From Centipeda felix (lineage in GTDB: Bacteria > Bacillota > Negativicutes > Selenomonadales > Selenomonadaceae), in contig NZ_LT891958.1 in assembly GCF_900186465.1 (NCBI RefSeq), positions 62,001 to 126,000 of the forward strand: DNA of 64,000 nucleotides, read 5' to 3'. Shown here piece by piece: positions 26,513-56,547 of the stretch (positions are counted from its first letter, which is position 1; each line of letters opens with the position of its first letter). The notes under the pieces were generated by a model. The model saw nothing but the letters and a program-made list of their open reading frames with translations. It searched no databases and was not told the origin of the DNA. A program made the translations under genes and the position numbers.

Positions 26513-28300
26513 CTACATCCCACTCTCCTTTTTCTGCTCCTCCTCTGCTTCCCTCGCCTTCTTCTCTTCCTTTTTACGCTCCTTGTAGGCACGCGCATCG
26601 ATTCTTTCCAAATAGCTGTCGGGGATGCGGGCGACCGCCTTCGGCTCGACCGCATAGAGTTTTTTGTAGTAGTCCTCTGCCGCATCACCGTTGCCCATCT
26701 CATCGTAGATCTCTGCGGCGATCAGATACCCATAGGGGCTCTTTGCATCCACCTCGATCGCCTTCAATGCGTCGGCAAGTGCGCCGTCACGCTCACCGAG
26801 CATGCGCCGTACATCCGCACGGTTGACCCACGTGAGGACGTCTGTCGGAGCATCGGCGACACCGCGGTCGGCATCGGCGTGGGCGCGGTCAGCGTCGCCC
26901 AGCACAGCATAGGCACGTGCACGAATGACATAGCTGAGGGCAGGCTTGTCGTCGTGCGCCGCACCAAAGACACGCGCCATCAGCATGAGGGCACGCGTTC
27001 CGTCGCCATAGTCACTGTAGGCGTCGCTGTTCTCGCGTATTTTATCAATCGCCTTCGCATCGGCGCTCTCAACCGCCGCATGCTCCGCCTCGCGTTCTGC
27101 GGCACGCGCCTGCTCCGTGCTGCGCAGCCTCTCCCGAGCGCCGCTCGTCGTCTCCCCGACGTACGCATCCCCAACGAGAGCGATGAGCTGTGCCCCCGCC
27201 TTGGCTTTCTCCACCAGGGGCAGGAGTGCCGAATTGATCCGGGCGTCGCCGCGCATCGATACGCCGCCGCCGCGCGTCAGAGCGAGCCCCCAGTCCGCTG
27301 CTGTATCATAGTCGTGAAAGGCACGGGCTAATGCGCCTGCAGCGAGATAGGCGTTCTCGGGACTGTTGTCATAGTCCTCATCCGTCTGTCTCGCCGTGAG
27401 GAGCGGCGTACCGTCGATGCAGACCGTCCGCCGATCCGTCACCGTCACGTGCCCCGCACTGTATGCCGTAAGCATCTCCGCGAGCTTTGCCTCACGCCGC
27501 TCTGTCGCAGGATGATCGGAGAAATCGTCCTGCGGGAGGTCCTTGTCCTTTGGGTTCTGGTACTCGCGCAGATCCTGTGTCACATACGTCAGATAGTAGC
27601 CCATGCGCGCCATCGCCGCCGCCCCGCCGCCGGGGTTAAACCCCGCACTCGTCATGATGTGGAAGCCGCCCTCGTCTGCCTCGTACTCTGTGGGCAGAGT
27701 GATATTTTTGGCAATGGAGTAGCCCGCCAGTGCGTTGAGCTTGTTCCAGTCCATCAGCCCCGCATCCATGTTGAGAAAACTCAGCCCGTAGTACTGCGCC
27801 GCCGCCTTCGCATAGTTGTGTGCACTGTGCTGGCGGATGCCGTGCGTCATCTCATGCCCGAGCACCGCCGCGAGCTCATCCTCGCTGCCGTTCAGCCCAC
27901 GGATCAGCCCGCAGTTGATGCTCACATAGTCCGTCGGATAGCACGCCGCGTTAAAGATGGGACTGTCGTTCACCGCCCATACAAAGGGAAGCGAGTTCAC
28001 ACGGAGCACATAGTCTCCGTCCCGCACGAGCCGCTGCATCACATGATCGACCAGTGCAATATCGCGTGCATTTCGTGCACGTCCGTTTTCCTCTATATCC
28101 TGTCGCTCGCTCTCATGCTGCGCATGAACATCGTTGCCGAGCGCGAGCACCGCACCGAGTGCCGAGTGGTACGCGCCGAGCACGCCGAGTGCCTGCGCCG
28201 CAATCCCCCACGCGTCAATCGCCTCCGCGCGCATCGGCGAGAGCAGCAGTCCGCCTCCGATCACTAGGGCGGAGCATGCTGCGAGAATTCTCTTTCGCAT
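26513..28300 (-). CDS. Secreted M48-family zinc metalloprotease with TPR-like C-terminal half
   Basis: 595 residues from ATG 28300, behind GGGAGTG. A signal peptide ends around MRAEA, so the protein is exported to the periplasm. The M48 domain holds the zinc-binding HEMTH near residue 147 and the third ligand in EYEADEGG near 203. The C-terminal half is Ala-rich and helical with repeated TPR-like units (YVIRARAYAVLGDADRAHADADRG, DVLTWVNRADVRRMLGERDGALADALKAIE). The plan is like BepA/YfgC, which guards outer-membrane protein assembly. That role is an inference, and it fits a cell with an outer membrane. Confidence 0.88.
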   Translation of the reverse strand: MRKRILAACSALVIGGGLLLSPMRAEAIDAWGIAAQALGVLGAYHSALGAVLALGNDVHAQHESERQDIEENGRARNARDIALVDHVMQRLVRDGDYVLRVNSLPFVWAVNDSPIFNAACYPTDYVSINCGLIRGLNGSEDELAAVLGHEMTHGIRQHSAHNYAKAAAQYYGLSFLNMDAGLMDWNKLNALAGYSIAKNITLPTEYEADEGGFHIMTSAGFNPGGGAAAMARMGYYLTYVTQDLREYQNPKDKDLPQDDFSDHPATERREAKLAEMLTAYSAGHVTVTDRRTVCIDGTPLLTARQTDEDYDNSPENAYLAAGALARAFHDYDTAADWGLALTRGGGVSMRGDARINSALLPLVEKAKAGAQLIALVGDAYVGETTSGARERLRSTEQARAAEREAEHAAVESADAKAIDKIRENSDAYSDYGDGTRALMLMARVFGAAHDDKPALSYVIRARAYAVLGDADRAHADADRGVADAPTDVLTWVNRADVRRMLGERDGALADALKAIEVDAKSPYGYLIAAEIYDEMGNGDAAEDYYKKLYAVEPKAVARIPDSYLERIDARAYKERKKEEKKAREAEEEQKKESGM

Positions 28301-28322
28301 CCGATCACTCCCTTCGATTGGC

Positions 28323-28331
28323 ACTATACCA
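28323..28331 (-). promoter_or_regulatory. Extended -10 promoter of the M48 gene
   Basis: On the minus strand TGG followed by TATAGT. No clear -35 is seen. Transcription would start about 16 bases before the start codon. Confidence 0.45.
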
Positions 28332-29406: not shown

Positions 29407-30723
<1,317 letters not shown>

Positions 30724-30790
30724 TCATCACCATAACGAAAGGATATCCCTTCCGAATACGCCAATTCCCAGGCGCATCCTTCTCTGTGAT

Positions 30791-30944: not shown

Positions 30945-30966
30945 TTGTGTGACCTAGGTTACACAA
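30945..30966. promoter_or_regulatory. CRP/FNR-like palindrome upstream of the candidate small RNA
   Basis: A 22-base near-perfect palindrome, with only one symmetric pair not matching. Its core TGTGA, six bases, TTACA is one base from the CRP consensus. The centre (30955.5) lies about 41 bases before the expected start of the RNA that follows, the class II activator position. Confidence 0.55.
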
Positions 30967-30979
30967 TTTTCAAACAAAA

Positions 30980-30990
30980 TATGATAAAAT
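30980..30990 (+). promoter_or_regulatory. -10 region of the candidate small RNA
   Basis: Overlapping TATGAT (30980-30985) and TAAAAT (30985-30990), with no good -35. This fits an activator-dependent promoter under the palindrome just upstream. Confidence 0.45.
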
Positions 30991-30993
30991 ACG

Positions 30994-31190
30994 AAGTGTC
31001 AACGGGGAATACGAAACGTCCTCCCCGACATCTTTCCCCCCCGTTGATCATCCCTCTATGGGAACGTTTCCCTGCGTTCCTATTTGTAAGGCAAAATCCT
31101 TACATCCCATTTCTCAAGCCGCAGGTATTCCCAACCTGCGAGCATCCCTTTCCAGGAAAAAGAGCCGACCACCCTGTCGGCTCTTTTTCT
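30994..31190 (+). ncRNA. Candidate small regulatory RNA with C-rich unpaired segments
   Basis: About 195 nt with no convincing open frame. Five local hairpins can be drawn: 30999-31007 with 31039-31047 (9 bp), 31061-31066 with 31075-31080, 31085-31091 with 31098-31104 (perfect 7 bp), 31120-31126 with 31134-31140 (perfect 7 bp), and a terminator at 31157-31188. The loops and linkers repeat UCCC-type motifs (CATCCC, TTTCCC, ATTCCCA), the kind that pair with ribosome sites in RsaE/RoxS-like RNAs. The 5' and 3' ends do not pair with each other, so it is not 6S RNA. It is predicted only. Confidence 0.5.
31157..31188. terminator. Strong terminator between the candidate small RNA and the ZIP gene
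   Basis: AAAAAGAGCCGAC pairs with GTCGGCTCTTTTT around a six-base loop. It works on both strands, ending the plus-strand RNA and the ZIP message. Confidence 0.9.
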
Positions 31191-31198
31191 GTGCGTAT

Positions 31199-31978
31199 TT
31201 ATCCGAGCGCGACATCGAGCATCATCATGAGCGTAAAGCCCACTGCGAACGAGAGCACGCCGATGTTCGAGTGCTCTCCCTCGCTCATCTCCGGAATCAG
31301 TTCCTCCACCACGACGTAGATCATCGCGCCCGCCGCGAAGGAAAGTGCATAGGGCAGAATGGGCACGATGAGTGCCGTTGCAAGCACGGTCAGCACGCCG
31401 CCGATCGGCTCGACCGCCCCCGAGAGGACGCCGCCCGCAAAGGCGCGCCACTTTCCCATCCCCGCCGCACGCAGCGGCATCGAGATGATCGCCCCCTCGG
31501 GAAAGTTCTGGATGGCAATACCGAGGGAGAGCGCGAGCGCAGCGCCAAGCGTAATGCCCTCGCTGCCGCTCAGCCAGCCCGCGTAGATCGCACCGACGGC
31601 CATCCCCTCGGGGATATTGTGCAGGGTCACGGCGAGGACGAGCATCGTCGTCCGCGAAAGGCGGCTGTGCGGTCCCTCCGCCTGCTGCGCATTCATGTGC
31701 AGATGTGGAATAATGTGATCGAGGACGAGGAGAAAAAGCGTCCCCGCCCAGAAGCCGACGACGGCAGGAACAAAGGCAAACTGCCCGAGATCAGCAGAAC
31801 CCTCCATCGCAGGGATGAGAAGGCTCCAGACCGATGCCGCCACCATGACGCCCGCAGCAAAGCCCGTCAGCCCACGCTGCACGCTGCGGTTGAGTGTATC
31901 CTTCAGGAAGAAAACACAACCGGCACCGAGTGCCGTCCCGAGAAAGGGGATCATGAGTCCCTCAAAAACATCTGACAT
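31199..31978 (-). CDS. ZIP-family divalent metal transporter
   Basis: 259 residues with about eight membrane spans. The HNIPEG motif in the fourth span and a second EG-containing helix (NFPEGAIISMPL) carry the metal-binding residues of the ZIP family, closest to the GufA/ZupT group. It probably imports zinc or another divalent metal through the inner membrane. An AGAGGTGATG-type site leads into the ATG. The promoter overlaps an AT-rich stretch with a GATAAT-like word, a possible metal-regulator site (weak). It is a single gene. Confidence 0.92.
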   Translation of the reverse strand: MSDVFEGLMIPFLGTALGAGCVFFLKDTLNRSVQRGLTGFAAGVMVAASVWSLLIPAMEGSADLGQFAFVPAVVGFWAGTLFLLVLDHIIPHLHMNAQQAEGPHSRLSRTTMLVLAVTLHNIPEGMAVGAIYAGWLSGSEGITLGAALALSLGIAIQNFPEGAIISMPLRAAGMGKWRAFAGGVLSGAVEPIGGVLTVLATALIVPILPYALSFAAGAMIYVVVEELIPEMSEGEHSNIGVLSFAVGFTLMMMLDVALG

Positions 31979-55896: not shown

Positions 55897-56547
55897 ATGC
55901 TTTTGCCGTCATTTCCCGAAGTGCCGCCGCACCTCCTGCGCACGGCACGTCCGCTCACATTCCAGCCCGACGAGATCATCCGCTGTAAGGGAACGCACGC
56001 CGACACGGTTTACATCCTCCTCGCGGGGCGCGTGCGCATTATCAACGAGTTCTCAAGCGGCGATCGGTATGTGTTTGCCATCGCCGACCCGCCAACATTC
56101 CTCGGTGAGTACGAGGCTCTCGCGGGTACGCCGTACTATGCCGCGACATGTGAGGCAGAAACGGTATGCGATCTGCTCGCCATCAGCATTGACGCGTTCG
56201 GTGCATGGCTCCAGCACGACGCGGCAGCAGCGTTTTCCGTTGCCTGCATGATCGCACGAAAATCCTGGCCCATCTCGGACGAATACGGTCAGATCAAATA
56301 CCTAACGGTGCAGTCGCGTCTCCTCGCCTACCTGCAAAAGCAGCTGCCTGCGACCGATGCCGCCGTGCGTCTCCCCATGCGGCGGCAAGACATCGCCGAT
56401 GCCATTGGTACGAGCCTGAAGACGGTCAACCGCAGCGTCGAACGCCTCCGTGCAGAGGGGATACTCTCCCTCGACCGCGGCAAGATCGCCCTCACACCCG
56501 ACCAATGCGCAAAGATGCGGACAATGGATGTGCACCAAAAAACATAG
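55897..56547 (+). CDS. Crp/Fnr-family transcriptional regulator
   Basis: 216 residues from ATG 55897, with GAGGAG upstream. An N-terminal cyclic-nucleotide-binding-type beta-roll (LLAGRVRIINEFSSGDRYVFAIADPPTFLGEYEAL in pieces) is followed by a long helix and a C-terminal winged helix-turn-helix (MRRQDIADAIGTSLKTVNRSVERLRAEGIL). The Arg and Glu that E. coli CRP uses to read TGTGA are replaced by Leu and Lys in the recognition helix, so its site probably differs. No iron-sulphur Cys cluster is seen, so it is not a classical FNR. The signal is unknown. It is divergent from the purine permease operon. Confidence 0.9.
   Translation: MLLPSFPEVPPHLLRTARPLTFQPDEIIRCKGTHADTVYILLAGRVRIINEFSSGDRYVFAIADPPTFLGEYEALAGTPYYAATCEAETVCDLLAISIDAFGAWLQHDAAAAFSVACMIARKSWPISDEYGQIKYLTVQSRLLAYLQKQLPATDAAVRLPMRRQDIADAIGTSLKTVNRSVERLRAEGILSLDRGKIALTPDQCAKMRTMDVHQKT

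Follow-up and report, generated by a model that had tools for sequence, protein, structure and literature searches.

Does the DNA between eno and a ZIP-family gene of Centipeda felix carry a small regulatory RNA (sRNA) and, if so, which protein switches it on and what does the RNA act upon? An earlier note had placed a candidate at positions 30980–31190 of the window (i.e., the whole stretch of 64,000 nucleotides that was analyzed) and had ascribed a function to its UCCC motifs. This view is supported by a promoter, a terminator, covariation, motifs that are kept in three genera, and linkers biased towards start regions, and we regard a real sRNA gene at this locus as practically certain. The wider role that the note considered, global regulation of metabolism, is no more than a candidate function.

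Organization of the locus

As seen from the sequence and the list of open reading frames, eno (29407–30711) and the ZIP-family gene (31199–31978), both on the − strand, flank a transcription unit on the + strand. Sequence, alignment, and a spacer survey place its −10 box, TAAAAT, at 30985–30990 (+), where most relatives have TATAAT in the alignment, and none of the three revealed a good −35 box. A CRP/FNR-type palindrome, TGTGACCTAGGTTACA (30948–30963, unstranded), is the predicted activator site. It lies 21 bp before the −10 box in the window's genus and 22 bp in the ruminal relatives, which puts its center at about −41.5, the position of a class II activator. The start of the RNA is predicted at about 30996–30998, giving a transcript of approximately 195 nt (30996–31190, +) that ends in an intrinsic terminator stem (31157–31188, unstranded), recognized in the sequence and in the folds and covarying among relatives. 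The stem is bidirectional, stopping the sRNA on the + strand and the ZIP gene on the − strand. It is a strong terminator, as noted earlier. The proposed coordinates need correction at the 5′ side, as 30980 belongs to the promoter, just 5′ of the −10 box. A 124-aa frame opening with TTG (30945–31319) could not be maintained, with single-base indels scattered through the genus alignment; no reading frame is conserved across this alignment, in line with the claim that the RNA lacks a protein-like frame.

RNA structure and conservation

The + strand of 30960–31200 folds with −84.5 kcal/mol (z −9.3; 0 of 200 shuffles match), the − strand of the same region less unusually (z −6.0). The fold consists of four local hairpins and the terminator stem, together spanning 30998–31188, so that the count of five hairpins given earlier is correct when the terminator is included. 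TCCC occurs seven times in the sRNA (3.7 ± 1.4 in dinucleotide shuffles, P 0.02) and is unpaired in six of the seven cases, where shuffles that were folded anew gave 2.1 ± 1.2 (P 0.01); both values exceed those of the shuffles.

Hairpin 1 (30998–31048, +) covaries in both clades, and its 18-nt loop, AAACGTCCTCCCCGACAT (31014–31031, +), is identical in 14/14 genomes of the window's genus. It is followed by linker 1, CATCCCTCTAT (31049–31059, +), of which the part CATCCCTCTA is identical in the same 14 genomes, bar one inserted base. Hairpin 2 (31060–31081, +) exposes UCCC in its loop, hairpin 3 (31086–31103, +) has a ruminal counterpart that covaries, and linker 2, ATCCCATTTCTCAAG (31104–31118, +), contains the core TCCCATTTCTCAA (31105–31117) common to three genera. 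Hairpin 4 (31118–31142, +) carries UUCCC in its loop, and linker 3, GCATCCCTTTCCAGG (31142–31156, +), contains CATCCCTT, which is likewise common to three genera.

All 14 genomes examined from the genus have the sRNA (the named ones are all oral: S. artemidis, S. noxia, S. flueggei, S. massiliensis, and Centipeda periodontii), and the hairpins are kept in every one of them, one of the two points on which the earlier note had staked its claim. Six stem pairs changed on both sides within the genus, where shuffling gave 3.1 and sliding the partners 0 to 3, and nine did so in the ruminal alignment behind R2, described below (3.5 in shuffles). While the stems vary in this compensatory manner, the hairpin 1 loop and the UCCC linkers hardly change in the genus.

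Homologues in ruminal bacteria

A covariance model built only from the window's genus (R1) detects copies in the Selenomonas ruminantium clade (E 3e−6 to 6e−4), and one built only from the ruminal clades (R2) detects the RNA of the window, beginning at an identical 5′ end (E 8e−4; E-values are rough). Outside the window's genus, homologues were found in 26 genomes from two genera around S. ruminantium, which after the R2 search brings the carriers to 40 (14, 20, and 6 by genus, with one of the last six truncated). The exact core, TCCCATTTCTCAA-n(5–35)-CATCCCTT, was matched in 37 of 380 genomes of the class, confined to three genera of one family, and its reversed control had zero matches among the 380. 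The ruminal RNA is built without hairpins 2 and 4 and has UCCC in other loops, often in that of the terminator too; the number of UCCC motifs is six or seven in most copies, despite the different hairpins of the two clades. Orthology of the ruminal and window sRNAs is supported by the presence of an M48 peptidase gene near both, adjoining the ruminal gene and with a relative at 26513–28324 in the window.

A joint cross-clade alignment from hairpin 3 to linker 3 was mis-registered and was discarded. The weak R2 matches beyond the three genera that were inspected (G351 and G163) were rejected as missing the anatomy of the RNA, and six pattern matches in a scan of the genome collection (Oscillospiraceae, Verrucomicrobia, and others) were considered chance hits, as the structure is missing. 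Three S. ruminantium-clade genomes harbor a paralogue built in the same style, a second UCCC-hairpin RNA (L285 1701–1810, L286 1774–1884, and L287 42–150), with the loops AUAUCCCA and UUAUCCCA, a terminator, and no palindrome. Two of the three have it close to hypF, and one of these close to efp.

The predicted activator site

The palindrome is conserved in 14/14 genomes of the genus, its left half being GTGAC throughout and its right half GTTAC in ten and GTCAC in four, and in the window's genome the sRNA site is the sole perfect match to TGTGACnnnnGTYACA. Most copies of the S. ruminantium clade have GTAACnnnnGTTAC, from which the site of the window's genus is one to two changes away (GTGAC); the left half-site was lost in four of about thirty copies surveyed (some g3 copies and S. 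montiformis). The exact GTAACnnnnGTTAC also stands 21–22 bp from TATAAT at all six hcp genes tested, and the hcp sites of the window's genus have GTAAC on both sides, unlike the left half of the sRNA site. Rodionov et al. 2005 (PMC1274295) linked Pro181 to the HcpR2 motif GTAACnnnnGTTAC. The window's genome encodes four CRP/FNR-family proteins, and the recognition helix of an HcpR2-type regulator (G000:C17:644614–645309), SRPSLSR, corresponds to Arg180-Pro181. Regulators of this type are present in 38 of the 40 carriers (HcpR was not detected in G182 and G194) and in 34 of 149 other genomes of the family, a comparison that is confounded by kinship. We consider it very likely that a CRP/FNR-family activator drives the sRNA gene, and we lean towards HcpR as this activator, the promoter pointing to a redox or NO sensor of that family. 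As hcp is a gene of nitric-oxide defense, the resemblance of the sites suggests that the sRNA has a part in the response of these anaerobes to nitrosative stress.

The window itself contains a CRP/FNR-family gene (55897–56547, +; 216 aa; helix TSLKTVNRS) between purine-permease-like and amino-acid-permease-like genes, for which no ortholog was found in G003 or G013. The sequence TGTGACCTGATTCACA occurs at L023 1501–1516 (G000:C14:128327), directly 3′ of TATAAT, before the rpmH region and opposite dnaA, and is possibly a repressor-type site or a product of chance. The sequence GTGACnnnnGTCAC was seen in two ruminal genomes (L159 311–324 and L166 2949–2962) at a prs-like gene, directly 3′ of its −10 box; this gene adjoins a CRP/FNR gene of the L020 type discussed below.

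Probable base pairing and candidate targets

The C-rich elements had been proposed to pair with ribosome sites. Among 392 open reading frames from 464 kb of the window's genome (called by a simple method, with ten shuffles), the pairing of linkers 1, 2, and 3 was stronger at start regions than inside genes, by 1.2, 1.4, and 0.9 kcal/mol, compared with 0.2, 0.5, and −0.8 kcal/mol (sd 0.4 to 0.5) for the shuffled linkers. In the same sample, neither the hairpin 2 loop nor the hairpin 4 loop had a start-region preference, and the loop of hairpin 1 scarcely any. Blocking of ribosome sites by UCCC seeds was described for RNAIII, RsaE, SprD, FsrA, and LhrC (PMC4132741), and the UCCC motifs of the present RNA probably act by base pairing as well.

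Start-region comparisons, a search for the complement of the core, and inspection of the eno leader yielded no target that is conserved beyond doubt. The complement of the TCCCATTTCTCAA core was rejected as a common target, its matches being near chance level and falling at no consistent start sites. The start regions of nuoK/L/M score high and retain G-rich ribosome sites; the nuo match is absent from two carriers, and any G-rich site would score. In 9/14 genomes, GGRGGGAUGC in the second hairpin of the eno leader could form 10 to 12 consecutive pairs with linker 3 (z about −3); the window's own genome is not among these nine (z −0.6). As candidate targets, both nuoK/L/M and the eno leader are leads only. 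The eno leader (about 30700–30790, −) has two small hairpins, and most of the 14 genomes have them in the same position.

The explanation we prefer, and to which we give an even chance as a whole, is a stand-alone trans-acting sRNA, most likely activated by an HcpR2-type regulator, that represses translation through UCCC pairing; its activator, induction, pairing, and targets are what we infer. The activator, a CRP/FNR-family protein and most probably the HcpR2-type regulator of nitrosative stress, would turn the gene on from the palindrome at about −41.5, with nitric oxide (NO) or nitrite as the putative inducing signal. The RNA of approximately 195 nt would then present six or seven UCCC motifs in its linkers and loops, and several mRNAs would be kept from translation by pairing of these motifs with their purine-rich ribosome-binding sites, as is the case with RoxS/RsaE and LhrC.

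Alternative explanations

The same sRNA could be activated in the window's genus by an Fnr like that of Bacillus subtilis, which has a cysteine cluster at its C-terminus and is encoded beside narK, and by another regulator in the ruminal clade; its role would then be in anaerobiosis or nitrate respiration, comparable to FnrS of E. coli. The sRNA site, as TGTGA-n6-TYACA, resembles the fnr-narK sites of the genus, narK has the identical 21-bp spacing in the narK-fnr intergenic region, and an Fnr-like protein (recognition helix ARESLNR) is encoded in 13/14 genomes of the genus. Given the shared narK spacing, Fnr was first favored as universal activator, but this was dropped since it is present in only 26 of the 40 carriers and missing from 14, including G013 of the window's genus, where the site is intact. 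The ruminal sites, moreover, have GTAAC rather than GTGAC, and the C and G around the central four bases, invariant in the sRNA sites, are variable in the fnr-narK sites and fit HcpR2 better. We judge this explanation rather unlikely; in the window's genus, Fnr, or Fnr and HcpR together, may act on the sRNA.

A CsrB-like function, in which the RNA titrates a protein recognizing repeated UCCC/AUCCCA elements with no pairing to mRNAs, appears improbable. Modular hairpins with one motif each, which come and go with the total still at six or seven motifs, would suit it, and so would the invariance that reaches beyond the motifs (AUUUCUCAA) although no perfect target is conserved. To our knowledge, however, the class has no protein that recognizes UCCC/AUCCCA, and the repeated GGA of CsrB/RsmZ-type hairpin loops is absent from the sequence and fold, where the loops have UCCC. 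The linkers prefer start regions, and UCCC is an established seed of base-pairing sRNAs (PMC4132741), both of which favor pairing.

Slightly less probable still is activation of the same sRNA by an L020-type CRP/FNR protein (helix AREVVSR), the gene of which adjoins a thioredoxin-reductase-like gene. This protein occurs in G013, G003, and three ruminal genomes tested, and its Arg-Glu helix predicts a TGTGA-type site, but it was not detected in G193 and G194, its own operon in the window's genome has no such site upstream, and it would not account for the ruminal GTAAC sites. That there is no separate gene, and that the RNA is a UTR belonging to eno or the ZIP gene, or else a structured element on the − strand, is very improbable: the RNA adjoins both genes and the − strand folds well too, but eno is directed away with its own promoter closer to it, the ZIP gene shares only the terminator with the RNA, the neighbor genes differ in the ruminal clade, and the conserved promoter is directed along the + strand.

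Comparison with known systems

Searches against Rfam gave no family match for the sRNA: RsaE/RoxS was not found even at E up to 5, there was no match to a family named LhrC, and the best weak match, AgrB (E 0.05), was rejected as far under its gathering score. Our literature searches revealed no described small RNA of Selenomonas. We assign the RNA, as a family not described before, to the C-rich sRNAs that pair with Shine-Dalgarno sequences, a known kind (RoxS/RsaE, LhrC).

FnrS of Escherichia coli is an sRNA with a CRP/FNR-family activator site, as predicted for the Selenomonas sRNA, but the two have no sequence match and Fnr is not in every carrier. RoxS of B. subtilis and RsaE of Staphylococcus aureus block ribosome sites with C-rich regions in the way proposed here (PMC4409812). 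RoxS is induced by NO (PMC4409812), a response that for the Selenomonas sRNA is predicted only, and the latter differs in its six or seven motifs, its four or two hairpins, and the lack of an Rfam match. LhrC of Listeria monocytogenes has redundant UCCC in one loop, one linker, and the loop of the terminator, as does the Selenomonas sRNA (in the terminator loop in many ruminal copies), and both LhrC and the S. ruminantium sRNA have paralogues; LhrC, however, is driven by LisRK and differs in sequence and signal (PMC4132741). The SnoA locus of Bacteroides thetaiotaomicron, another anaerobe, connects an RNA locus with HcpR and nitrosative stress, but its induction is HcpR-independent, it is proposed to work with HcpR at promoters, and the preprint is silent on UCCC or C-rich motifs (PMC13370916). 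The HcpR2 regulon shares the site GTAACnnnnGTTAC (exact in most S. ruminantium-clade copies) and the Pro181 regulator with the Selenomonas case and has hcp as core target, and its description in the relevant part of PMC1274295 is without a small RNA.

A wider scenario, which we put forward tentatively, is that of a Negativicutes nitrosative-stress sRNA under direct HcpR activation that independently reached the RoxS strategy, with whole UCCC hairpins added or dropped between lineages and the activator site re-tuned, or passed to another CRP/FNR protein, between the ruminal and oral clades. The sRNA would be a defined family in common anaerobes of the mouth and rumen, together with a concrete regulon prediction, and the CRP/FNR-type palindrome of its promoter goes beyond the earlier note. 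If HcpR drives the sRNA, a base-pairing sRNA would lie inside the HcpR regulon and would parallel RoxS in a different class of bacteria, which would suggest that C-rich sRNAs were repeatedly recruited by NO responses.

The sole Rfam match of the window is a molybdenum/tungsten cofactor riboswitch (RF01055) at 1604–1753 (−), with 69.6 bits.
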